Origin: a virus
DNA: 64,000 nucleotides
IMG/VR virus record: IMGVR_UViG_3300033153_010125
Coordinates: 1-64,000 of that record
Strand: one strand, 5' to 3'
Shown: positions 7,340 to 57,595 of the stretch, one piece after another
Position numbering within the stretch: the first letter of the stretch is position 1
How the letters are laid out: every line of letters starts with the position of its first letter
Notes under the pieces: generated by a model
What the model saw: only the letters and a program-made list of their open reading frames with translations
Databases searched by the model: none
Told to the model about the DNA's origin: nothing
Made by a program: the position numbers and the translations under genes

Positions 7340-8037
7340 TAAGTTGTTGTTTGCGTTTTCTGATGTTCATCCAAATTAGGATTTTCATCCGGCATAGATG
7401 TTCTATAAAAATTGGCCACTTCCGAAATTGTATCCTGAACAACTAACTCTAAAAACCTATCTGGACATACAAAATCTGCATCCCATACATTTCTACACCC
7501 ACTATCTTTTGGGGCACAAGATGAGGTTTGTTCAGCATCATCTCGGTCTATCGCAATCATCTCTATCTCGAGAAGTTCCGCATTTGACTCAGGACAAATT
7601 AAGCGTTCATCCTTGATCGTAAAATATCTAGCTGAGGTATTTCTGTATTTCCTTTTTTTAAGACGAGCGTACTCTTTTGCAGTAACATACTTATACTCTT
7701 TCGACTCGTCAATATTAGTTACCCTGAGGATGCCTGTTCCACTCTTACCAAAAATAGTTTCTGGTAGCTTGTTACAAGATCTCATAACCCTGTCGCAAAG
7801 TTTAAACTCCACAATGCCACAATCTTTAGATTGAATCCTCTCCATTGGAAAGCATTCAATCCTGAATTTAATTCCCTCCTCTTTGTTTAAAGAAAGCTCA
7901 TCCAACTTTTGACTCATTAGAAACTTAGCCTTCATTCTAGCAATACTTAGGATATACCTCCAACGTATTGATCCATCTTTTGTAACGAATCTTCCTCCAT
8001 TTATTACTCTAGAAACTACTTCCCTGTTTGTTGACAT
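7339..8037 (-). CDS. Unknown tail-operon protein
   Basis: 232 aa from the ATG at 8037. The frame extends upstream to 8094, but that would place the start above the promoter -7 box at 8043-8050, so 8037 is preferred. The product is basic at the N-terminus with a helix rich in K and M, then mixed beta. Near the C-terminus there are paired cysteines (SSCAPKDSGC and DFVCPD). First gene of the operon that ends with the giant tail protein, so a ring, barrel or hub role is plausible, but I do not recognise the family. Confidence 0.6.
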   Translation of the reverse strand: MSTNREVVSRVINGGRFVTKDGSIRWRYILSIARMKAKFLMSQKLDELSLNKEEGIKFRIECFPMERIQSKDCGIVEFKLCDRVMRSCNKLPETIFGKSGTGILRVTNIDESKEYKYVTAKEYARLKKRKYRNTSARYFTIKDERLICPESNAELLEIEMIAIDRDDAEQTSSCAPKDSGCRNVWDADFVCPDRFLELVVQDTISEVANFYRTSMPDENPNLDEHQKTQTTT

Positions 8038-15568: not shown

Positions 15569-15806
15569 TTTCTACGTACTCCTTTAAGGCATTTATTGTT
15601 TGTAGATCGGGGCAGGATTCCACAGCCTCTATTAATAGCTGCTCTACATCACTCCGCATCTCTTTATATTCAATTTTTTTATCAGGGTCTGTTGTTATCC
15701 TCTCAAGTGTAATAAGATTGTTCCTGATTTTATGTAAGTCGGATACTTTACCGCTGCAACTAGTACTATTGACTAACCCATTAGTTCCTTTTGTACACCC
15801 ACACAT
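15543..15806 (-). CDS. Unknown small protein of the tail operon
   Basis: 87 aa. The N-terminus MCGCTKGTNGLVNSTSC has three cysteines, then a predicted helical hairpin with charged residues. Its start codon shares a base with the upstream gene's stop. By context an assembly factor or minor tail protein. Confidence 0.5.
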   Translation of the reverse strand: MCGCTKGTNGLVNSTSCSGKVSDLHKIRNNLITLERITTDPDKKIEYKEMRSDVEQLLIEAVESCPDLQTINALKEYVENEFSIYNN

Positions 15807-16321
15807 TACTCACATGTTGAGCAGTTAAGAATGTCATCTACCATTTCTTGAGCCTCTTCAAAAAGCATTGCTGCCTTTTCAATATTGTCATACCTCAAAA
15901 AAGCTTGTGCAGCTAATTTTAAAAACTCAATTCTTGTCATTTTTTTGTTGAATGCCTCTTTATCAATTTCCTCAAGTCTATCAACAAATATCTTATCGAC
16001 CTCCATATCATGGAGATCTGTTTTTAGATAGTAGTACTCTTTAGTATATGTCTCCGGTGATCCTGTTACTGTAATTGTGTAAATACCATCAGGTAATGTT
16101 GTCAGACCCTCTTGTCCTACACAGTTTACGCCAAGCATGTTACTGTTAAAAACATTCAATTTGTTTTTATCATAGAACTTAACAACTGGTTTTTCATACC
16201 CAGGCAACAAGATATTGATAATCGAGGGCTTCTCTTTTATCAGTCCCCAAACACTTAAATCCACTACCTTCAAATAGTATGGATTAGTGTGTATTGAAAA
16301 ATCTATATGGATTGCTGCCAT
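15806..16321 (-). CDS. Beta-rich N-terminal domain protein, first gene of fibre operon
   Basis: 171 aa. Residues 1-105 are beta-rich with LPDGIYTITVTGSPE, like an Ig or carbohydrate-binding fold. Residues 110-165 form two charged helices with a tetratricopeptide-like spacing (FLKLAAQAFLRYDNIEKA). The protein ends CSTCE. The ATG at 16321 is fixed by the promoter box 4 nt upstream. Probable tail or fibre-assembly protein. Confidence 0.55.
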   Translation of the reverse strand: MAAIHIDFSIHTNPYYLKVVDLSVWGLIKEKPSIINILLPGYEKPVVKFYDKNKLNVFNSNMLGVNCVGQEGLTTLPDGIYTITVTGSPETYTKEYYYLKTDLHDMEVDKIFVDRLEEIDKEAFNKKMTRIEFLKLAAQAFLRYDNIEKAAMLFEEAQEMVDDILNCSTCE

Positions 16322-16325
16322 GTTG

Positions 16326-16368
16326 CAAATTTAAGTACAGCCATCCTATTTTCAAAAAAGATTAGATT
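16326..16368 (-). promoter_or_regulatory. Class A (late) promoter, leaderless
   Basis: Minus strand AAATCTAATCTTTTTTG at 16369-16353, 19-nt spacer, then TAAATTTG at 16333-16326. The ATG at 16321 follows after 4 nt. Both the -33 and -7 elements match the Bacteroidota consensus. Confidence 0.8.
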
Positions 16369-33663: not shown

Positions 33664-35355
33664 TTATCGCTTCAACTCGATAATGATATATCTAGTTGTA
33701 TCAAGTACTAAGGCTGCTGACTGAGATGTTGCCCAGAAAGTTTTCCCCATATACTTAAGTGAAGATGCGATATTCGTTTGTTGAGATCCGTTCTCCATTC
33801 TTCCTTGCTCGTATCCATAAACTACGTGGCTACCTTCCGGCTTAACATAGTAGATATTTGCATTCTTAGAACCGCCCTCTACCAAGTCAGCACCTTTAAC
33901 CTTGCTAGATACATTGCTGTACTCAGGTTTAGAAGCATCCCAGATAACTAAAGAGTGAGAAGTGTGAGCTTCTCCTTCTCCGAACATTCCAGATGAGAAT
34001 CTATCAGATAATGGTTGGTAATCTAATGAAGCGTCATGCTGTATAACTACTCTACCGATTCCAGGGAACAATACTGATTCAATTTGAACAGCTTGCATGT
34101 GCAACTCATCAAGTTTCCCTGTGAACACTTGCTCTTTAATTTGAGCTTGATCTCCTAACATTCCTGCAGGAAGTCTTCCTAGTTGGCTTAACGCCTCTTC
34201 TCTAAACAATTGAAGCATATTTTGGTAACCGTACCAACCAGCTTTAAATTTCAACACCCTTTCTTTAGGCGTGATCTTAGAGTTCTTAAAGATATATGCT
34301 GCAGCCTCATGGATATGATCTAATGTGATCGCTCCTGGTCTTGCATACTTAATCAATTTACCTCTTCTAATTTGATGCCAAACTCCTTCGTTTACTCTCT
34401 TCACTCCGTTAGAGCTTTGTAAAGTTGCAGCCCTAGCAAATAATAAAGAATAAGTCTCCATAAGAGCTAATTCCATAAGAGCTAAATACTCAAGTGTAGC
34501 TCCAATTTTCATTCCTTTACTCTTAGCTGAACCATCTTTGTTCAAACTAGCAACAAAGAACATCTCACGATCTTTTCCTCCAAGAGAGTTAAGTTCATTT
34601 TGAACAGTATCCCTCATGTCATCTGCAAAAGCATTAAGACCTGGTGAATGCATTCTAGCAGCCTTCGCTGTAGAGAATGTTTCAACCCCTCTAGGTGATC
34701 CAAGAACGAATTCACTAGTGATTGTTCCACCCGGATTCTTCAACATATTGATTGAAGAGAATGTAGTATCGTACTCAGCAAGTGCGTTACCTATTTTCAT
34801 CCAACTAACTCCAGCTACTAATTGTTCTTTTGGGAACCAAGATGCTTTGTTGTTTGTAGCATACTGTACAATGTGACGGAAGTGTTCACCAACTCTTTCG
34901 ATTTCGTGTTCACTAGATACATGTACTTGCTCACCATATTGAGGATCATAAGTTAAGATATCTCCTTTTGTAAATTCTCTGTTTAAGATAATTTCAAAAT
35001 ACCCTTCATCAATTCCTGGGAATTCATGTTTGTTTGAAGTGTCTACCGCAGTAAAACACTTGTATTTAGATCTATTTACAGGAAGATCGTATGTAATGCT
35101 TTGTCCCTCTTCACATTCTAAAACTGCTGAATCTTCAAACAGGTCCTTCATAAAAGGAACTGCCACGTCATGAGTAGTTTGGAATAAATTAATCATTCCT
35201 AAATGCTTCTTATGGGCCTGACCATTATCATCATCCATCAAATAGGCCGAAACCTTTGCGGAGTCCAACCAACCCTGAGTCTTCATCTCTTTGGCTGATG
35301 TGAACGCAATGACAGAATCTCCGTTGATTACCTGTCTGATGTCAAATTTGTTCAT
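33664..35355 (-). CDS. Major capsid protein (HK97 fold, inferred)
   Basis: 563 aa. Follows a scaffold-like gene by 30 nt and precedes a strong terminator, the usual place for the most abundant head protein. Length is close to crAss-like MCPs (about 490-560 aa). A long helix-rich region around residues 255-320 (LEYLALMELALMETYSLLFARA) could be the spine helix; a beta-rich C-terminus (TTRYIIIELKR) follows. No N-terminal propeptide is evident. Identity comes from order and composition; HK97 fold is expected for tailed phages. Confidence 0.7.
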   Translation of the reverse strand: MNKFDIRQVINGDSVIAFTSAKEMKTQGWLDSAKVSAYLMDDDNGQAHKKHLGMINLFQTTHDVAVPFMKDLFEDSAVLECEEGQSITYDLPVNRSKYKCFTAVDTSNKHEFPGIDEGYFEIILNREFTKGDILTYDPQYGEQVHVSSEHEIERVGEHFRHIVQYATNNKASWFPKEQLVAGVSWMKIGNALAEYDTTFSSINMLKNPGGTITSEFVLGSPRGVETFSTAKAARMHSPGLNAFADDMRDTVQNELNSLGGKDREMFFVASLNKDGSAKSKGMKIGATLEYLALMELALMETYSLLFARAATLQSSNGVKRVNEGVWHQIRRGKLIKYARPGAITLDHIHEAAAYIFKNSKITPKERVLKFKAGWYGYQNMLQLFREEALSQLGRLPAGMLGDQAQIKEQVFTGKLDELHMQAVQIESVLFPGIGRVVIQHDASLDYQPLSDRFSSGMFGEGEAHTSHSLVIWDASKPEYSNVSSKVKGADLVEGGSKNANIYYVKPEGSHVVYGYEQGRMENGSQQTNIASSLKYMGKTFWATSQSAALVLDTTRYIIIELKR

Positions 35356-36817: not shown

Positions 36818-39571
36818 TTAGTTTTTATTAATTGTCGCTATGTATTCAGCACTCTTTCTTCCTGCCCGTTTTTCTTGTAACTCTTTGGCTCTCAGTTTTA
36901 ATGCCTCCATCTGTACTCTCGTATTTTCAGTGTCCTTCTTCTCTTGGGCTTTCATCTTATCTGTCGCAATATTTGTATCAGCATCAATCTTATTCTGCTG
37001 TATCGCTTGATCGGCTGCTATTTTTATGTGTTCAAACCCAGCAGCATCAGATTCCTTATCAGAAGCTCTACCAAGAGCATTCAGTTTAGCTACCTCTATT
37101 TTAGTCTCTCTATCTTTCTGATTCTCCTCAGACTCTCTCATCAACCTCGTCTCCTCTGCTTCTTTTGCAGCTGCTATTCCTTGATTTTGCATCTGAGCTT
37201 GCTCTCCTCTTATTTGATCTTCTCTTGCTTGATTACGTTCTTGTGCTAATCTTGCTATCTCAACAGCTTCTGCCATTCCATCAGATGATATAAGTTTAGC
37301 TAGTTCTAGTGTATCAGAGCCTAATGTGTTATTGTTGATAAGAAGTGTTTTAAACGTCTCTAACTCTTTTCGTTTAGCCGAGTCCATTGTTGCAATCAAT
37401 CCTATCCTTCTAAAAGGAAAGCTAGGATCATTCATTTTTAAGAACTCTATTGACCCATCAGATTTTGTATAATAAAGACTATTATCTTTTTTATTACTCT
37501 GTGCGTATTGTGCTACAGATAAATGTAACTCTCTGGCTGATTTTAAATAGATATTAAAGTTTTCGAATATCTCAGCAAGTTGTGCCCACCCAGCTTCTTG
37601 GTTTTGTCTAACCCCTTCTGCTGTTTCATATTTAGTTGGTTGTTGTAATATCGCTTGATTTATCCCTATAACCTCATAAGCCTTCCTCTGTGTAAACTCT
37701 GCCATCTTAATACGATCGGCAATTTGTGAACTATTAGAAAGATTGTATGATGAGAATTGATTAAAATTACTGGCTGGTCCTTGTCCATCTTGAGATGTGG
37801 CTACTGGCATTATTCCAGTGTCTTTAGCAATATTCCTAACAGCCATCAGTGCCTCCTGAGCATCTCCCCATCCCTCAAATTCTGATGGGATCATAGCTAC
37901 ATCCATTAAAAAGAAAATACCAAGCTCTTTCTCGAGTAGAGAATAAACCTGGTTCATACATAAATTATGTTTCGCTTGGTATGGCTCTATTCTTTTGGCC
38001 ACCGACTCCCCTATATATCCTGCTACTGGTAAGTACCTATCAAACTCGCTTTCCCCTTTAATCACATGCTCCCACTCATCACATTGAAGATATAGTGGAT
38101 CTTTAAGGTTTCCGGATTGTACTTTGACTCCTTTATATATAACGGGACGTAATACCCATTTAAGTGTATTTACTTCAAAATCTTCTACTATCTCGACAAG
38201 TGACTCCTTATATGTTTGTTTAATCCCCTTCTCCTTAATTACCTCTGATAAGATATCCTCTGTCACTTCCTCTGTCACAACAGTTCCATAATCATCCTCA
38301 TATGTAAGATATCCATATCGATCGAAAGCTCTGAAATATACCTCAGTCACTTGACAAAGATCTGTACGGTGCTCAAAATCACCTCGCATTATTCCAGCGT
38401 ATCCATCATAAACCGACCCTCTGTTGTGTCCTGCTAATTTTGGTAAAAACCTTTCCTTTGTTGTACTTGTCCCATCATCATTAAACAATGTCTGAACCCC
38501 TAAAGGTACTCCTGTTTCTTCCTGTAAACCAAGATAGAAGTTGTAATCTGCGTAATTTGAGAAAGGTGTTGTAGCTTGTTTGTTGAAGTTTGACTTCAAT
38601 GACTCAGTAATGTTTCCTGTATAAAGATCATCTCCTACAAATTCTCCCCAACCTTCATTACCTCCTAGGAGATCTTTTTGAATCTTGGTGTCTATTAGAT
38701 GTCCATGTGTCCTAACAACCTGTGCTGGTGTAAACCAGTTAATGTTTCCAGCATACTCGCCTTTGTGGACCAAACTAATATCTGCTTCTTTTGAAAAGAA
38801 TGTGTTTTTTGCACTCCAAGTCTCTGGTTCGTAATTATCAAACCCTATTCTAAAGTGTCTGAAACACCTACCTGCTGTGAGATAGTGTTTGAAATCCTCT
38901 TTGTCTAAATAGTTAAAGTTGAATCTCTCCTTATCATGTTCTAAAGTAGCCTCCCCCCAAGTAGTCCCTACTGTTTTAAATGTTTTTTTGCTGGCGTCAA
39001 GTGTATCCTTTGGCGTAAATGCTTCCTTCGCTTGCTGTAACTCGGCCATATAAGCTTGTTGCTCTTCAGGTGACTCAAACGTATTCAGGTCCTTGTCGTA
39101 CCCAGCCTCTGCCATTCTTAATTGAATAGAGTTTTCGAGCACCTTCTCAAGCATTCCTTTGAGTTTGTCATTTTGATGACGCATAAACTCATTCTGTGCA
39201 ATCTCCCCCGTATCTGTTACGTGAAACTTATCTTGCATCTGGATTAGAATCCCAGTAAGGCCCTTTATAACAACCCCTATTATATCGTAGTGTTTTATGA
39301 ATGTTGGTACACCTACTCCGTCAAGAAGATTTTGGATATCTTCAAAATGTGGTGCTACTTCAGATAATTCTTGATAGGTGAGTTTTCCTTCAACCATTCT
39401 ATACAGGTCAACAAACTCTAGGTTTTCCATAAACTGGTCTACCGCAATTCTTTCAAACCCATCTAGCACCGCCCTCTTCCAAGGATCTTTCTTTTTGACC
39501 GACCTTTTTACGGTCATTGGTGGCAGGTTATACGTGTTGTAATACCTGCTATATGGCGTTGTGCTAAACAT
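36818..39571 (-). CDS. Portal protein
   Basis: 917 aa. Follows TerL and precedes scaffold and MCP. The first 780 residues mix helix and beta with a tail-tube-like region (EWHEHVIKGES type, FDRYLPVAGYIGESVAKRI). The last 130 residues are a long coiled coil (EETRLMRESEENQKDRE and further Gln/Lys/Glu runs), typical of large podovirus and crAss-like portals whose C-terminus enters the capsid as a barrel. Length is at the upper end for crAss-like portals (about 750-900). Confidence 0.75.
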   Translation of the reverse strand: MFSTTPYSRYYNTYNLPPMTVKRSVKKKDPWKRAVLDGFERIAVDQFMENLEFVDLYRMVEGKLTYQELSEVAPHFEDIQNLLDGVGVPTFIKHYDIIGVVIKGLTGILIQMQDKFHVTDTGEIAQNEFMRHQNDKLKGMLEKVLENSIQLRMAEAGYDKDLNTFESPEEQQAYMAELQQAKEAFTPKDTLDASKKTFKTVGTTWGEATLEHDKERFNFNYLDKEDFKHYLTAGRCFRHFRIGFDNYEPETWSAKNTFFSKEADISLVHKGEYAGNINWFTPAQVVRTHGHLIDTKIQKDLLGGNEGWGEFVGDDLYTGNITESLKSNFNKQATTPFSNYADYNFYLGLQEETGVPLGVQTLFNDDGTSTTKERFLPKLAGHNRGSVYDGYAGIMRGDFEHRTDLCQVTEVYFRAFDRYGYLTYEDDYGTVVTEEVTEDILSEVIKEKGIKQTYKESLVEIVEDFEVNTLKWVLRPVIYKGVKVQSGNLKDPLYLQCDEWEHVIKGESEFDRYLPVAGYIGESVAKRIEPYQAKHNLCMNQVYSLLEKELGIFFLMDVAMIPSEFEGWGDAQEALMAVRNIAKDTGIMPVATSQDGQGPASNFNQFSSYNLSNSSQIADRIKMAEFTQRKAYEVIGINQAILQQPTKYETAEGVRQNQEAGWAQLAEIFENFNIYLKSARELHLSVAQYAQSNKKDNSLYYTKSDGSIEFLKMNDPSFPFRRIGLIATMDSAKRKELETFKTLLINNNTLGSDTLELAKLISSDGMAEAVEIARLAQERNQAREDQIRGEQAQMQNQGIAAAKEAEETRLMRESEENQKDRETKIEVAKLNALGRASDKESDAAGFEHIKIAADQAIQQNKIDADTNIATDKMKAQEKKDTENTRVQMEALKLRAKELQEKRAGRKSAEYIATINKN

Positions 39572-39577
39572 AGGCTA

Positions 39578-39620
39578 CAAAGATGCCAAACCTTTCAACA
39601 CTTTCCAAAAAAATTAGAAA
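39578..39620 (-). promoter_or_regulatory. Class A (late) promoter before portal, near-leaderless
   Basis: Minus strand TTTCTAATTTTTTTGG at 39620-39605, 20-nt spacer, CATCTTTG at 39585-39578 (first base differs from TAnnTTTG). The ATG at 39571 follows after 6 nt. Confidence 0.7.
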
Positions 39621-49504: not shown

Positions 49505-51076
49505 ATGAAGAAACAACACACGTATGACAGAGCACTTTTAAAGCAGCTCTGTAAACAACAGCCAAAAAACAATTTCAATGCCACAACAGTGACTAGAGAA
49601 TATTGTGAAGAGGTTGGAATAGAGTTTTCTGTATACAAGGCGAGGCAAGTCCAGAAGATTATAAAGAAGGAGAATTTTCATGAAACAGGGTCTAAACCAC
49701 ACGAATCAGACCACTATAAGGAGGCCACAAAAAGGAAAATTAAGAAAAAAATTGGCCTTTACTTAATTACTTGGGCGCAGGCTCATACCCCTATAAATGA
49801 AGTATTGTGGGAAAATATGAAAGCCTACGCACAGAAAATTGGTGCCAAGATTATTGTCCTTCCTGGAACATATTTAAATTACAATTCTTCTTTTAAGAAG
49901 CTAGAACGTACTTGGGACGACAGACTTCTTGAATACATGTATGCTTCAGAAAATAAACTCTTTAAACATTTACACATAATACCTGATGCAGATATCCTCC
50001 CTACAGCACAAATGCCTCTTATGGGAATGGAGAGTGTTACAGGAATTGAGAGTTCTATAATTGGGCACCCTCGTCAACACAAGATGATTGTTCCAACCCT
50101 GAAAACCTCACGTAGAAAATTAATGGCCACAACTGGTTCAATCACTGTTGAGAACTACAGAAGAGCAAGAGTTGGTAAAAAAGCCAGAACTCATCATAAG
50201 ATGGGGTTCCTTATCGCTGAAAAAATCGATAAAGAGGAATTTGTAATGAGGCATGTTGAGGCAGAGAAAGACGGCTCTTTCCAAGATCTTGTTTTTAGAG
50301 TAGAGGAGGGGAAGGTTTCAATGACGGCTAAATGGGCAGCCATTGTCAATGGAGATACACACTTATCAAAAGAGTGTAGTGATATGTTAAAGGAGACTCG
50401 TAGAATTGTCGAAATAGGAAAACCGGATGTTACAATTTGGCACGATTTATTTGACGGGTATTCTATCAACCATCATCAACAAAAAGATTTTGTAGCACAG
50501 GTGATTAAGGAGAAGAAAAATCTTAATAGTCTTCAGGGAGAAATTGATCTCAATATGAATTTCATCAAGGAGTGGAAAGATACAAATATGATTATCATTC
50601 CAAGTAATCATAATGATTGGTTAGATAAGTGGGTGAGATTCTCTGAGGGGACCAAAGATTTAAAAAATGCAAAACTCTTTAATGAGTTTCAAGCAGTCCT
50701 GTTTGAGGAAAAAGCTCCAAAAGGGTTATATGCATATCTTGTTGACCGAGAATTCGGTGATGAGGTAAAAACTCTAGACAGGAATGCTTCCTATATGGTA
50801 GCAGGTCATGAGATTAATAACCACGGAGACCTTGGTTCAAATGGTGCCAAAGGGACCCCAATTACTTTTAAGAAGTTGAATACTAAGATTGTATCTGGAG
50901 ATAAACATTTTTTATATACTTTTGATAATGCATTTGGTGTAGGTATCACTACAGTACTTGATCATGGGTATAATAGAGGAATGAGTTCTTGGATTCAATC
51001 CAGTGGCCTTATTCACGCAAACGGAACCTTCCAACATTTAATATTTGCTGGAGGAAAATTTACCACACTTTTCTAG
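49505..51076 (+). CDS. Metallophosphoesterase-like protein, T5 A1-like
   Basis: 523 aa. The motif order WHDLFDGYSINHHQQ (residues about 320-333), SNHNDWLDKW and AGHEINNHGDLGSNGAKG recalls the D-x-H / G-N-H / GH-x-x-H set of metallophosphoesterases and, from memory, the T5 A1 protein that breaks down host DNA. The N-terminal 170 residues form a separate DNA-binding-like basic domain (KQQPKNNFNATTVTREYC and HTH-like). The early position in the recA operon fits host-DNA degradation. Alternative: a phosphatase with a different substrate. Confidence 0.55.
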   Translation: MKKQHTYDRALLKQLCKQQPKNNFNATTVTREYCEEVGIEFSVYKARQVQKIIKKENFHETGSKPHESDHYKEATKRKIKKKIGLYLITWAQAHTPINEVLWENMKAYAQKIGAKIIVLPGTYLNYNSSFKKLERTWDDRLLEYMYASENKLFKHLHIIPDADILPTAQMPLMGMESVTGIESSIIGHPRQHKMIVPTLKTSRRKLMATTGSITVENYRRARVGKKARTHHKMGFLIAEKIDKEEFVMRHVEAEKDGSFQDLVFRVEEGKVSMTAKWAAIVNGDTHLSKECSDMLKETRRIVEIGKPDVTIWHDLFDGYSINHHQQKDFVAQVIKEKKNLNSLQGEIDLNMNFIKEWKDTNMIIIPSNHNDWLDKWVRFSEGTKDLKNAKLFNEFQAVLFEEKAPKGLYAYLVDREFGDEVKTLDRNASYMVAGHEINNHGDLGSNGAKGTPITFKKLNTKIVSGDKHFLYTFDNAFGVGITTVLDHGYNRGMSSWIQSSGLIHANGTFQHLIFAGGKFTTLF

Positions 51077-51133: not shown

Positions 51134-52714
51134 ATGAGTGATATTCTTTCAAAAGAAGAAGCCAGAAATGGTATCAAGAACGGAATCAATAAAGTAGCAG
51201 ACACAGTAGGTTTAACTGCTGGTCCAAAGGGACGTAATGTAGTAATAGCACAGGGATTTGGTGCATCAATAAATACCAATGACGGTGTAACAGTTGCCAG
51301 AGCAATTTCTTTGGGGGATCCTTTAGAAGATATTGGTGCTCACATGGTAAAAGAAGTGGCTACTAATACAGAAGAAGCTACAGGTGACGGAACTACTACT
51401 GCTACAATCTTACTTCAAGCACTCGTAGAAGGTGGTTTAAAGAAAATTGCTGCAGGGGCTGACCCAAACCAGTTAAAGGTAGGGATGGCTAAAGCGGCTA
51501 ATAAAATCGTAGAGCATCTTGACTCACTAAGTATTCCGGTAAGTGATAACGCCACCATTAAAAAAGTTGCCACAATTGCAGCAAATAATGACGAGGAATT
51601 AGGAACCCTCATTGCAGAAGCTTTTGCAGAAGCAGGAGATGCAGGAGAAGTAGCGGTAACTGAATCAGGGACTTTCGAAACAAAACTAGAGGTTGTAGAA
51701 GGCCTACGTTTTGATAGGGGGTATTTACACAGAGCATTTATTAACAATGTTGCAGCAAGAAGAGCCGATTTAGAATCACCAAATATCCTTGTAACAGATA
51801 AGAAAATTAATTCCTCAAGAGATTTGATGCCTATCCTAGAGCTGCTTGCAACAACTACAAACTCTAAACTATTATTAATTAGTGATGATATTGAGCAAGA
51901 TGTCTTGATGTCGATTGCTATGTCAAAAGCGCAAGGGAAGATAGACATCACCTGTGTAAAGGCCCCAGGCTTTGGAGATAGCAGGGCTGAAATGTTGGAA
52001 GATATTGCAGCTATTGTGGGAGCAACCTTTATTGGACCGTCTCATGAACTTCAGAAAACAACACTTGATGATCTTGGATATGCTGAGTATGTATATGCTG
52101 AGAAAGATGAGACCACTATTATAGGTGGTGGGGGAGAAGAAGATGAAATCAACAGTCGTATTGATAATATAAAAGAAGCGTTAAAGGAACCGGAGTTAGA
52201 AGATTACCCTAAACAGATCCTACAAAAAAGACTAGGATATCTTAAAGGAGGTGTGTCTGTTCTATATGTTGGGGCCGCTTCTGATACAGAACTTGCTGAA
52301 AAGAAGTATCGTATTGAGGATGCTATTGGTGCAACAAGATCAGCTATTGCGGAGGGGATTGTTCCTGGATGTGGGATTGCTTTGATCAGAGTAACCAATG
52401 ATGTAAAGAATTTCAAAATGGTTGAAACAGAGGATGAAGGTCTGGGAGTAATGGTAGTTCTTGAGGCTGTAAAAAAACCCTTCAACAAAATCCTTGAAAA
52501 TGCAGGACTCTCACCAGAGGTTGTAATGGCCAAGATTATTGATGAAGATGCCTTCTACGGAATCAATGTTAAGACAGGAGAATATGGCAATCTTATGAAA
52601 CTGGGCGTTATTGATCCAGTGAAGGTTACTAAAACAGCACTACTTAATGCAGTATCTGTTGCAGGGCTGTTTTTAACTACAGAGGCGGTAGTCTTTGATC
52701 AACGTGGAGAATAA
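51134..52714 (+). CDS. groEL: Chaperonin GroEL homologue
   Basis: 526 aa. Folds proteins in a double-ring cage. Conserved ATP-site motifs: GLTAGPKGRNVVI (residues 26-38), NDGVTV (49-54), GDGTTTA (84-90), and IEDAIGATRSAIAEGIVPGCG with the catalytic Asp of the IEDA helix. The apical domain includes NILVTDKKINSSRDLMP. It ends VVFDQRGE without the GGM tail, and is about 20 residues shorter than host GroEL. Next gene is a GroES-like protein, giving a full phage chaperonin pair. Confidence 0.95.
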   Translation: MSDILSKEEARNGIKNGINKVADTVGLTAGPKGRNVVIAQGFGASINTNDGVTVARAISLGDPLEDIGAHMVKEVATNTEEATGDGTTTATILLQALVEGGLKKIAAGADPNQLKVGMAKAANKIVEHLDSLSIPVSDNATIKKVATIAANNDEELGTLIAEAFAEAGDAGEVAVTESGTFETKLEVVEGLRFDRGYLHRAFINNVAARRADLESPNILVTDKKINSSRDLMPILELLATTTNSKLLLISDDIEQDVLMSIAMSKAQGKIDITCVKAPGFGDSRAEMLEDIAAIVGATFIGPSHELQKTTLDDLGYAEYVYAEKDETTIIGGGGEEDEINSRIDNIKEALKEPELEDYPKQILQKRLGYLKGGVSVLYVGAASDTELAEKKYRIEDAIGATRSAIAEGIVPGCGIALIRVTNDVKNFKMVETEDEGLGVMVVLEAVKKPFNKILENAGLSPEVVMAKIIDEDAFYGINVKTGEYGNLMKLGVIDPVKVTKTALLNAVSVAGLFLTTEAVVFDQRGE

Positions 52715-52739
52715 TACAAACCAAAGAATATTATAAAAA

Positions 52740-52982
52740 ATGGAAGCACAGCTTAAAAAAGTAATAGTTGAGGTAATCAAACCAAAGGATCTCATAGCAG
52801 ATACTGATACGGTAATAACAGCAAAGGGAAAAGTTATCTCAATAGGCCCAACATGTGAATGTGATATAAAACTGGAGGATGTTATCATGTTCTCAGGTTT
52901 TGCAGGATCGAGATTTAAACTTGATGGGAGCGATACAGAATATCTAGTGTTAAACCAAGACGAAGTCTACTTAAAACTATAA
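52740..52982 (+). CDS. groES: GroES-like co-chaperonin
   Basis: 80 aa. The core KKVIVEVIKP...ITAKGKVISIGP and DVIMFSGFAGSRFKLDG...YLVLNQDEV follow the GroES pattern (K-V-x-V..., G-x-V-x-x-V-G, K-x-G-D-x-V, E-x-x-I-x-x-x-D-I). The mobile-loop stretch is reduced to about eight residues (DLIADTDT) without the usual hydrophobic IVL triplet, and the roof hairpin is short. It lies 25 nt after groEL. It may work only with the phage GroEL, or replace host GroES. Confidence 0.75.
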   Translation: MEAQLKKVIVEVIKPKDLIADTDTVITAKGKVISIGPTCECDIKLEDVIMFSGFAGSRFKLDGSDTEYLVLNQDEVYLKL

Positions 52983-52984
52983 TT

Positions 52985-53887
52985 ATGGAAAACCCATTCG
53001 AAGAAGTAAAAGATACAACCTTTCTAAAATGGCTTTGGGCCAATTGGAAAACACATATAGGCCTTATCCTACTTTTTAGTTTGATCTTTATAGTAGGGTC
53101 CTTCTGTATCTTAGGTGGAAACTCCCCATACATTGTGAGTACAGTTGTTTTCCTATGGGCACTATCTGCCTCAGTGATTTTACCTTTCAATGAATACAGA
53201 GATGCCAAACAAAATTATGATGCTTTTGAGGAATCAATAAATAAGCCAGGGGATACTTCCTCCGAAGGTGTGTGGCACCAGATAAACAATAAAGATGTTG
53301 AATATACCAAGCCTTGGGAGGGGGATACAGGTATTCCAGAAAAATCTTTATATAAAAGAATCATATTATCCGGTGGAGCTGGTTCTGGAAAGGACTATCT
53401 TAGAGACATATTCCATAAAAGAGGTTTTATTGTAGATGTATCATACACTACTAGAAACCCTAGGGATGGAGAAACTCCTGGGTATACATACAACTTTGTT
53501 GGAGTAGATCATTTTAAACAATTAGACAACAGGGGAAAATTCTACGAATCTGTTGTATTTAACAAGGCTCTTTATGGTACCTCTAAAGATAGTTGGGAAA
53601 ACTCTGATGTTTTTATTATGACACCTTCTGGAGTAGAGCAAATCTCTGCAGAGGATAGAGAAAATTGTATAGTTGTATACTTTAAAATCGAAGAAGATGT
53701 TCGTAGAGAAAGGATGGGAAAACGCAAAGACAACGGCTTCGATAAGATCGAAAGAAGAATCCTTGCTGACAACGAGGACTTCAAGGGCTTTCTGCCTGAA
53801 GCCGATATGGTAATAACTAATCCACTTTACGATAGCGATATTGTAATAAAGGATATTCTAGACATGGCAGTTTTAAACAAAGATTAA
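52985..53887 (+). CDS. Membrane-anchored guanylate-kinase-like protein
   Basis: 300 aa. Two membrane segments lie at residues about 24-44 and 48-68 (IGLILLFSLIFIVGSF; VSTVVFLWALSASVIL). The C-terminal half has a P-loop GGAGSGKD at 130-137, then SYTTRNPRDGETPGY at 153-167, the GMP-binding T-T-R-x-P-R-x-G-E motif, then YFKIEEDVRRER near 225-240. Guanylate kinases are soluble; the membrane anchor and a GKD loop (usually GKS/T, but GKD occurs in phage dNMP kinases) make it unusual. It would phosphorylate (d)GMP or bind it. Follows groES by 2 nt. Confidence 0.75.
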   Translation: MENPFEEVKDTTFLKWLWANWKTHIGLILLFSLIFIVGSFCILGGNSPYIVSTVVFLWALSASVILPFNEYRDAKQNYDAFEESINKPGDTSSEGVWHQINNKDVEYTKPWEGDTGIPEKSLYKRIILSGGAGSGKDYLRDIFHKRGFIVDVSYTTRNPRDGETPGYTYNFVGVDHFKQLDNRGKFYESVVFNKALYGTSKDSWENSDVFIMTPSGVEQISAEDRENCIVVYFKIEEDVRRERMGKRKDNGFDKIERRILADNEDFKGFLPEADMVITNPLYDSDIVIKDILDMAVLNKD

Positions 53888-54022: not shown

Positions 54023-54460
54023 ATGATGAAAAAAATAGTACTGCTTGCAACATTTCTATCGATTTTTAACTCAGCTGAGGCTAGGGTTTATAAAGAATTA
54101 ACTGTTAGAGATGTATATGATGTGATCCTAAAAGAGGACATCAAAAAACCAAAATATGTGCTTGCTCAATCTGCTCTTGAAACAGCTTGGTATAAGTCAT
54201 ATAATTGTACGAAGAGACATAACCTTTTTGGGTTCAGGTCTTCTTCTTGGGTAACCGAGGGTAACTCAAATGGATACAAAGTCTTTACTTCTTGGGAAGA
54301 GTCTGTTGAATATTATAGCAGCTGGCAAACAAGGAAGGGCTACAAAGAAGGTGAGGATTATTTGAAATTCCTTTCCAGAATTGGATACGCAGAGGATCCG
54401 GAGTATGGGTGGAAGCTCAAATCTGTTCTCAAACGTATCGAAACTAAATACGGAATATAA
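54023..54460 (+). CDS. Secreted glucosaminidase (peptidoglycan hydrolase)
   Basis: 145 aa. Signal peptide (KKIVLLATFLSIFNSAEA) then glucosaminidase (PF01832-like) core: SALETAWYKS with Glu53 as the acid, NLFGFRSSSW, GYKVFTSWEESVEYYSSWQ, YAEDPEYGWK. Cuts glycan strands between GlcNAc and MurNAc. It is separate from the lysis cassette and in the recA operon, so it may serve a non-lysis role. Its own Sec-type signal would make it holin-independent. Confidence 0.8.
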   Translation: MMKKIVLLATFLSIFNSAEARVYKELTVRDVYDVILKEDIKKPKYVLAQSALETAWYKSYNCTKRHNLFGFRSSSWVTEGNSNGYKVFTSWEESVEYYSSWQTRKGYKEGEDYLKFLSRIGYAEDPEYGWKLKSVLKRIETKYGI

Positions 54461-54855: not shown

Positions 54856-54930
54856 CACATTGTCACAAATAACCTAATGGCACAATAACTGATATAGAGA
54901 TTGAGCCAACTAATAATAAAACCAAAACTA

Positions 54931-54956
54931 AGCCCCCCCTGTGGGGCTTTTTTTAT
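54931..54956 (+). terminator. Rho-independent terminator
   Basis: AGCCCC / GGGGCT stem with a 6-nt loop followed by seven T. Ends the rightward recA operon. Confidence 0.9.
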
Positions 54957-54962
54957 TCCGTT

Positions 54963-55006
54963 AAATCTAATCTTTTTGGTAAGGTGTTAGTCAATTAGTA
55001 GCTTTG
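54963..55006 (+). promoter_or_regulatory. Class A (late) promoter before basic genes, near-leaderless
   Basis: AAATCTAATCTTTTTGG at 54963-54979, 20-nt spacer from the TTTG at 54975-54978, TAGCTTTG at 54999-55006. ATG 55012 follows after 5 nt. Same class as the capsid promoters, though on the opposite strand. Confidence 0.85.
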
Positions 55007-55011
55007 CTATT

Positions 55012-55380
55012 ATGCCATACGGAAAGAGTAAGATCAAAACTACACGTAGTAAAGACTATGATGGGAAAACGAAAGGAACTGCTAAACAAACAGTTACCAG
55101 TACGAATAGGAAAGGTAAAGGAAAGAAGACTAAAACCTCTACTTATTCACAGAACCTAAATAAAGGAACTGTTAAAATGTCCAATACCGTAACTAAGAAA
55201 AAGAAAAGCGGAGCTACCAAGAGTAAAGGGGTTACTTCTAAATATAAAAGCGGTGGAGGATCCCCAGGAACAACTACCAAAAGTAAAACTCGTTCTAATA
55301 AAAAGAAATCTGTTACTAGGTCGAAGACTACAACAAGAGGTGGAGGTACTACTAGAAAAAAGGTAGTTAAAAAGAAATAA
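55012..55380 (+). CDS. Lys/Thr-rich basic protein 1 (histone-like)
   Basis: 122 aa, about 30% Lys/Arg, with Thr, Ser and Gly and few hydrophobic residues. Repeats of KTKT, TKSK and GGGTTRKK type. Length and composition resemble protamine or H1-tail-like DNA-condensing proteins; no folded domain is expected. First of three such genes behind the late promoter. Confidence 0.7.
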   Translation: MPYGKSKIKTTRSKDYDGKTKGTAKQTVTSTNRKGKGKKTKTSTYSQNLNKGTVKMSNTVTKKKKSGATKSKGVTSKYKSGGGSPGTTTKSKTRSNKKKSVTRSKTTTRGGGTTRKKVVKKK

Positions 55381-55382
55381 TT

Positions 55383-55544
55383 ATGGCTAAGAAAAAAACA
55401 GGTATGAAAAATACCTATAAAGGTGATATGACTAATAGAAAGTCTAGGACAAAGAGGACAATAGCAAAAGCTAGAAAAACTACAAACACACGTACTGCAA
55501 AAAATACAAGTACACCTAAACGTAAACCGGGTAAAAAGAAATAA
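55383..55544 (+). CDS. Basic protein 2 (53 aa)
   Basis: 53 aa, 2 nt after the previous stop. Starts MAKKKTGMKNTYKGDMTNRK, ends KPGKKK; over 35% Lys/Arg. Same style as its neighbours, so likely co-translated. Not folded by composition. Confidence 0.65.
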   Translation: MAKKKTGMKNTYKGDMTNRKSRTKRTIAKARKTTNTRTAKNTSTPKRKPGKKK

Positions 55545-55546
55545 TT

Positions 55547-55798
55547 ATGCCAAAGAAAATTACACCAAAACGGTCAGAGGTTGCTGGCAATGTGAAGAGT
55601 AAGAAAAAGTCCTCTCAAAGGAGTTCTTCCAAAAAGAAGACAGCTACAAGAAAAAAAGCTTCAGGGAGAGCTTCTGGAAAAGGTAATAGACCTTTAACAA
55701 AAGGGCCGGGTGCAGGTGCACCACCTCCTAAGAAAAAAATTAAATCAACTACAGCTCCTAAAAGAGTAACCAGGAAACAGAGTAAAAGACGTAGATAG
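55547..55798 (+). CDS. Basic protein 3 (83 aa)
   Basis: 83 aa, 2 nt after the previous stop. Ser/Lys-rich N-terminus, a Gly/Pro segment (GPGAGAPPPKKK), and a basic end (KQSKRRR). Looks histone-H1-like. Followed by a terminator. Confidence 0.65.
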   Translation: MPKKITPKRSEVAGNVKSKKKSSQRSSSKKKTATRKKASGRASGKGNRPLTKGPGAGAPPPKKKIKSTTAPKRVTRKQSKRRR

Positions 55799-55822
55799 AA
55801 AGATCCTAAACATTTTTAAATA

Positions 55823-55847
55823 AGCTCCTTTAAGGGGCTTTTTTTAT
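55823..55847 (+). terminator. Terminator of the basic-gene operon
   Basis: AGCTCC / GGGGCT stem (one wobble) with T run (TTTTTTT). Faces the convergent terminator at 55893-55924. Confidence 0.8.
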
Positions 55848-55892
55848 TTCCTGGTGTGAATACCCCTTTTTCAAGAGAAGTCCTCTCAGGGC

Positions 55893-55924
55893 ACAAAAAA
55901 ACCGTCTCAAATTAATGAAACGGT
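55893..55924 (-). terminator. Convergent rho-independent terminator
   Basis: Minus strand ACCGTTTC / GAGACGGT stem (one wobble) followed by seven U. Ends the leftward right-hand module. Confidence 0.85.
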
Positions 55925-55945
55925 CTCCTTTCTAATGTTGTATGT

Positions 55946-57112: not shown

Positions 57113-57595
57113 TTATTCTACATGGAGGATTTCTCGAAGTTTTCCTTTTGCTCTGAAGATTTGTGGCTTAACAGTCCCTTCAGGAATATCAAGAGTATTA
57201 GAAATATCTCTGATACTTCTCCCCTTTAGTCGCATTTCGATAACATCCTTATATTTTTTTGGTAATTCCTCTACAGCCAGTAACATTTTATCCATATCAG
57301 ATACCTCTCCAAAATCATGTGTCTGCTCTACTGACCCATATTCTACTAAACCCTTTAGTGTAAGGAACTCATACCTGTCCTTCCGGCACTTATCATACCA
57401 CATACGTCTGATCATTATACTCAACCAACTTAGTAGCGCACCCTTACCTGAATCATATTGATGACATTTGTCGAGAGCTTTTATCAACCCATTTTGAACA
57501 AGATCTTCAGAATCACTTAGATTTTTTGTATAGACAAGACTCATCCTTATTAAGGATGCTCTATGAGAGATGATATCTTGTGTTAAATGGTGCAA
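57113..57595 (-). CDS. Sigma-70 family (ECF-like) sigma factor
   Basis: 160 aa, TTG start that overlaps the upstream gene by 13 nt. Region 2 covers residues about 10-75 (SEDLVQNGLIKAL; WLSIMIRRMWYD), region 4 about 105-158 with MRLKGRSIRDISNTL and EGTVKPQIFRAKGKLREIL, the HTH that reads the -35/-33. Region 3 is absent, as in ECF sigmas. A phage sigma would redirect host RNA polymerase to phage promoters; which class it reads is unknown. Confidence 0.85.
   Translation of the reverse strand: MHHLTQDIISHRASLIRMSLVYTKNLSDSEDLVQNGLIKALDKCHQYDSGKGALLSWLSIMIRRMWYDKCRKDRYEFLTLKGLVEYGSVEQTHDFGEVSDMDKMLLAVEELPKKYKDVIEMRLKGRSIRDISNTLDIPEGTVKPQIFRAKGKLREILHVE

Follow-up and report, generated by a model that had tools for sequence, protein, structure and literature searches.

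Small basic proteins in viral particles

Tailed phages generally package naked DNA, together with polyamines and divalent cations. This is the textbook view of these viruses, and it counts against reading the proteins described below as core proteins. In eukaryotic double-stranded DNA viruses, proteins such as VII and mu of adenovirus, P6.9 of baculovirus and P64 of ascovirus are small or repetitive, strongly basic and of low complexity (PMC6163548).

Small basic proteins have also been found in the particles of a cultured flavophage. Two proteins of the Cellulophaga phage phi40:1 (Pervagoviridae, a family other than that of the phage described here), gp069 and gp080, are annotated as 'structural protein' from experimental MS/MS data. 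The gp080 protein has 101 aa, 32% of them Lys or Arg, and is a member of phrog_6437 (E 3.8e-22). The gene of gp069 (113 aa, 28% Lys+Arg) has tRNA genes as neighbours and is separated from the capsid genes by some 13-15 kb; the detection of this protein by MS/MS shows that flavophage particles do contain small K/R-rich proteins whose genes lie away from the capsid run. A phrog_6437-like basic ORF of 103 aa is also present in csAssE-Sib (125250-125561, minus strand), where it lies in the replication region, not in the structural one; the annotated part of this ORF is the hypothetical protein WOZ57352.

Another family of this kind, DUF6321, has matches in 518 of 50,697 phage records. The cyanophage protein T4-GC0119 ends in DUF6321 and is annotated as structural in a second-hand annotation, and the main text of the source paper calls this cluster a hypothetical protein (PMC3037559). 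A reading of the locus described below that was made from its sequence alone (the sequence-only reading) had considered such proteins rare in phages. The number of DUF6321 records leaves that statement unsupported, and proteins of this kind are less rare than they looked, similar ones being present in the particles of phi40:1.

The phage and its relatives

The DNA analysed here, called the window, comprises positions 1-64000 of the 65,611-base virus record IMGVR_UViG_3300033153_010125. It contains profile matches to capsid, terL and portal genes, the portal gene (36818-39571) being identified by phrog_6547. The major capsid protein shares 34% identity with those of the Cellulophaga phages phi4:1 and phi17:2, 37% with that of csAssE-Sib, and 56-73% with those of eleven virus contigs (G001-G011). 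The source is a marine Bacteroidetes phage distantly related to phi4:1 and phi17:2 (Lightbulbvirus).

Among the relatives, G003 (124,113 bp) is probably circular and complete because it carries a 123-bp terminal repeat, and G001 is a fragment. Searches with terL, recA and portal added G014, G015 (130,346 bp) and others, and the three-gene unit described below was present in none of them; no further relative was confirmed when the DNA-transfer gene of phrog_1745 served as the query. Both G003 and G015 are syntenic with the window in the structural strand as well as in the opposite-strand recA-groEL region.

The plus strand of the window encodes a member of phrog_1745 ('DNA transfer protein'; 49505-51076) that is conserved in relatives, phi4:1 gp020 being annotated alike. 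It is followed by a phage GroEL of 526 aa and a short GroES-like gene (51134-52982), kept in G002, G003, G009 and G015, and by a gene (52985-53887) in which a guanylate-kinase domain comes after a stretch of about 120 residues that apparently contains two membrane segments; the counterparts in G002 and G003 consist of the kinase part only. On the minus strand, 57113-57595 encodes an ECF-type sigma factor (TIGR02937, E 9.5e-19), a gene that is absent from the relatives searched, save for a weak match in G007.

The three-gene unit and its boundaries

Three orphan genes follow one another on the plus strand: ORF A (55012-55380, 122 aa), ORF B (55383-55544, 53 aa) and ORF C (55547-55798, 83 aa). 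They are the frames given by the sequence-only reading, and the spacing of 2 nt that it reported is confirmed by the TAA-TT-ATG that joins each pair. Its figure of 30-40% Lys/Arg per ORF also agrees with the measured contents, which are 32% in ORF A (33 K and 6 R, net charge +37), 40% in ORF B (15 K and 6 R, net +20) and 37% in ORF C (21 K and 10 R, net +30). The A protein is rich in T, S and G, and the C protein in P, A, G and S. Acidic residues number two in A and one each in B and C, and the pI values range from 11.3 to 12. Among all ORFs of the record that reach 45 aa, these are the top three by positive charge, with a net charge per residue of 0.30-0.38 versus 0.19 for the next one.

Hydrophobic residues make up 8-12% of the three proteins. 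As expected for disordered DNA-binding tails, acidic residues are nearly absent and hydrophobic ones few, a composition that would suit such a role. In their extreme net charge, low hydrophobicity and disorder type, the three proteins have the composition of the protamine-like class. A mutual paralogy of A, B and C is unsupported (pairwise z 0.9 for B-C and 1.6 for A-C).

Terminators lie on both sides of the unit, in agreement with what had been proposed. Upstream, an intrinsic terminator (54930-54949, plus strand; 7-pair stem plus T-run, -12 kcal/mol, z -2.9) closes the module that contains the endolysin. Downstream, a weaker one (55822-55840, plus strand; z -1.2), situated 24 nt beyond the ORF C stop, closes the unit itself. 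The two have in common an exact 15-nt arm and tail, GGGGCTTTTTTTATT. A further hairpin (55885-55930, minus strand; -19.1 kcal/mol, z -4.2) terminates the opposing minus-strand genes. The unit had also been placed 10 kb away from, and opposite to, the capsid genes. The structural strand is indeed the minus strand, and its nearest end (44,319) is about 10.7 kb away; however, the major capsid gene itself (33664-35355) is about 20 kb from the unit, and terL about 13 kb.

The endolysin (glucosaminidase domain, 54023-54460) is encoded about 0.55 kb upstream of the unit, a neighbourhood that, together with cationic products and late expression, could suit lysis helpers, that is, cationic peptides which, like disruptins, break down the outer membrane as infection ends. 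However, a terminator separates the endolysin from the unit, and the three sequences have no visible signal peptide. Strongly amphipathic or hydrophobic segments, as in a membrane-active helix, are also absent: over 18-residue stretches the best mean hydrophobicity is -0.05 and the moments are low (0.37-0.53). A function in lysis is very unlikely.

A virion-class promoter ahead of the unit

When the upstream sequences of all genes were compared, a repeated element, CTAATYTTTTTTG, was found 32 nt (start to start) ahead of a TANNTTTG box. The box is the -7 element of the primary sigma factor of Bacteroidetes, whose consensus is TAnnTTTG (PMC7366714). Promoters of this type, here called class A, have a CTAATNTTTTTTG upstream element and the box 32 nt from its start, and both are found ahead of ORF A. 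The promoter of the unit reads CTAATCTTTTTGG-N19-TAGCTTTG, with the upstream element CTAATCTTTTTGG at 54967-54979 and the -7 box TAGCTTTG, of the TAnnTTTG type, at 54999-55006, both on the plus strand.

A PWM was trained on six structural-strand sites of this genome and five of G001, the site at 54967 being excluded. Held out in this way, the site scored 35.1; the training sites ranged from 32.5 to 45.2, and nothing in ten third-order shuffles exceeded 15.5. This confirms that a promoter of the proposed class precedes the unit. Structural sites include those at 16321-16365 (minus strand, 41.9), upstream of the virion-module gene 15806-16321, and at 39571-39617 (minus strand, 35.2), upstream of the portal gene. 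Taken alone, the upstream element scored 20.8 at the unit, and the other six class A sites ranged from 14 to 23.6. The scores did not exceed 7.5 at 11 further TANNTTTG boxes close to the starts of genes, among them the boxes of groEL and of the gene that precedes recA. All six other strong sites are minus-strand sites of the structural module, so 54967 is the sole plus-strand site; recA and groEL, which are plus-strand genes around the unit, lack the class A element. The held-out and upstream-element scores indicate that the unit, unlike the other genes of its strand, shares the promoter of the virion genes.

The genes that the other class A sites precede suggest that the unit is expressed late in infection, a prediction that we consider well supported. 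The terminators and the promoter scores also support its description as a self-contained late unit.

Only 5 nt separate the box from the ATG of ORF A, and the mRNA of the unit is therefore probably leaderless or nearly so. In the window, the ATG is 4-6 nt past the box at five of the seven class A sites (54967, 44270, 39617, 16365 and 8082), and the same spacing is seen at positions 7802, 12461 and 25461 of G001. Such a short gap at most class A late promoters predicts leaderless late mRNAs. In Bacteroides thetaiotaomicron, 5' UTRs of less than 10 nt account for only about 3.7% (PMC7366714). A scan of all viral contigs for class A promoters next to an ATG returned G001 and two weak or unrelated contigs alone, and hence no second class-A-driven basic operon. 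A phage ECF sigma factor as the reader of class A is unsupported, G001 (a fragment) having class A sites and no sigma gene.

Chance open frames in A-rich non-coding DNA could also be of low complexity and have no homologue, as is the case here, and 49 of 500 shuffles of the region produced a K/R-rich ORF with 50 aa or more. However, the three frames span the unit from end to end with identical junctions, between a promoter box (recovered when held out) just before the first ATG and a terminator shortly after the last stop. Their Lys codons (AAA:AAG 47:22) are also used in a ratio near that of the genome (526:302). An origin of the three frames by chance is extremely unlikely.

Homology searches

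Searches with A, B and C were empty in Pfam (E up to 1) and NCBIfam, as were PDB sequence searches with A and C, and PHROGs returned nothing significant, with chance-level matches for A alone. No relatives of ORF A were found by tblastn in phages, and none was confirmed in virus contigs, where 34 pattern stretches equally failed to be confirmed by tblastn. Back-translated or degenerate DNA patterns for the three proteins gave nothing significant. A degenerate KDYDGKTKG pattern was found in two contigs, one of which was inspected and proved to be an unrelated exonuclease-like ORF. The profiles of phrog_6437 and phrog_4590 did not match A, B or C (pairwise z at most 2.1), nor did the Pfam profiles of DUF5872, DUF5754 and DUF6321.

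The term histone-like, which the sequence-only reading had applied to these genes, is appropriate as a description of their composition; however, none of the three proteins matched a histone, HU or H1-like family in Pfam or NCBIfam, nor did A and C in PDB. This lack of matches is weak evidence of absence, because search filters penalise low complexity. Fast-evolving, low-complexity basic proteins escape filtered homology searches, and for this reason a class of virion DNA-binding proteins of marine flavophages may have been overlooked. The combination of a late promoter and composition offers a handle to find such genes without homology.

Basic proteins in related phages

A search by composition in related phages, which had been suggested as a check, revealed K/R-rich genes in the structural operons of G003 and G015. 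At least eight are present in G003 across the contig join (122096-4107), two of them encoding members of DUF5872 and DUF5754. The single one of G015 encodes a protein of 94 aa with 40% Lys+Arg and is directly upstream of the orthologue of the window gene 15806-16321; a homologue (z 31.7) is found near the same place in G003. Both phages have members that match phrog_6437, and within the phrog_6437/4590 family phi40:1 gp080 aligns with the csAssE protein at z 18.0. The K/R-rich genes of G003 and G015 adjoin orthologues of virion-module genes of the window, which has no basic gene at the matching position. This absence would fit a function that has moved to a separate unit, the proteins themselves not being homologous.

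Other relatives differ in this respect. In G004, a DUF6321 protein and two long K-rich proteins are encoded between tail-module genes. The latter two (L042 and L043, 18996-21755; 409 and 498 aa) lie between giant tail-module genes and contain KKVMAKK/KKTxAPVSK-type repeats, reminiscent of bacterial H1-like tails. A single basic gene is present in G001, on the non-structural recA strand, and no class A promoter precedes it. Of the cultured relatives for which MS/MS virion data exist, phi4:1 is the closest; it encodes no comparable basic protein, indicating that a capsid of this type can do without the function, and its gp024 (62 aa, structural by MS/MS) was rejected as a homologue, since it is not basic. 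No comparable basic gene was found in the scanned half of the phi14:2 genome.

Possible functions of the three proteins

The explanation that we favour, to which we give about an even chance, is that the three products are disordered polycations, made late, which associate with the phage DNA and accompany it in the particle as accessory core or protamine-like proteins. The unit would be transcribed during capsid and tail synthesis from the late promoter class of the phage, yielding three disordered polycationic proteins. These would bind double-stranded DNA without sequence specificity and travel in the particle with the genome, neutralising part of the DNA charge. Their presence in the virion is likely, judging from the relatives and from the mass spectrometry of phi40:1 virions, and it is proposed by analogy because they have no homology to the proteins detected by MS/MS (best z 2.1). 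That they may bind or condense DNA is suggested by their charge alone. The role that the sequence-only reading had proposed, in condensing or packaging DNA or as an internal virion protein, is thus plausible, with indirect support from the K/R-rich genes of the relatives and from phi40:1 gp069 and gp080.

A particular form of this explanation is a dedicated, separately promoted three-gene core operon, whose orphan protamine-like proteins would coat and condense the packaged genome in the manner of adenovirus and which would have left the structural operon, the place where unrelated basic proteins are encoded in relatives. We regard it as tentative and rather doubtful.

The evidence for late expression and for virion presence gives the same support to proteins that are packaged as cargo and act after ejection, either by protecting the DNA that enters the cell against nucleases or host defence or by binding host nucleic acids. 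Cargo proteins can be present in the head and tail of Bacteroidetes phages, as in phi-crAss001 (PMC10172136), and the DNA-transfer-type gene of phrog_1745 is in the same plus-strand region as the unit. However, the cargo proteins known from crAss phages are large proteins of 60-277 kDa (PMC10172136), and no domain or family match points to an effector role. A function as cargo is unlikely.

The late promoter and the position of the unit apart from the capsid genes would also be compatible with proteins that stay in the cell, either as nucleic acid-binding helpers of packaging or assembly or as RNA chaperones, and the analogy on which virion presence is proposed leaves room for them. The occurrence of other small basic flavophage proteins, phi40:1 gp069 and gp080, in particles argues against such non-virion proteins, which we consider improbable. 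If the accessory core reading were confirmed, protein core factors for high genome density in some tailed phages would become testable.

Comparison with known systems

The proteins of phrog_6437/4590 (phi40:1 gp080, gp46 of the Flavobacterium elemo phages, and those of csAssE-Sib, G003 and G015) are, like A, B and C, small and basic (87-103 aa, 32-40% Lys+Arg), belong to Bacteroidetes phages and are mostly encoded in the late or structural region, gp080 being detected in virions by MS/MS. However, they have a conserved core with acidic residues and the motif NRGSKSD..GD..ARG, which is absent from A, B and C, and their genes are usually single and in the structural region, whereas A, B and C form a separate three-gene unit. 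The gp069 protein of phi40:1 is likewise small, basic, encoded outside the main capsid gene run and detected in virions by MS/MS, but it shows no detectable homology (z 1.9 with A), has tRNA-gene neighbours and a more hydrophobic N-terminus. DUF5872, DUF5754 and DUF6321 are small K/R-rich proteins present in G003, G004 and hundreds of cyanophages and pelagiphages; their conserved domains, which contain Cys, Trp and acidic residues, are recognisable, and A, B and C match none of them.

The core proteins of eukaryotic double-stranded DNA viruses, in whose manner A, B and C would act, belong to unrelated viruses and are protamine-like or histone-like; no sequence homology between them and A, B and C was found, and their DNA binding or condensing has been shown by experiment. 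In being strongly basic and of low complexity, the three proteins resemble those of adenovirus, baculovirus and ascovirus.
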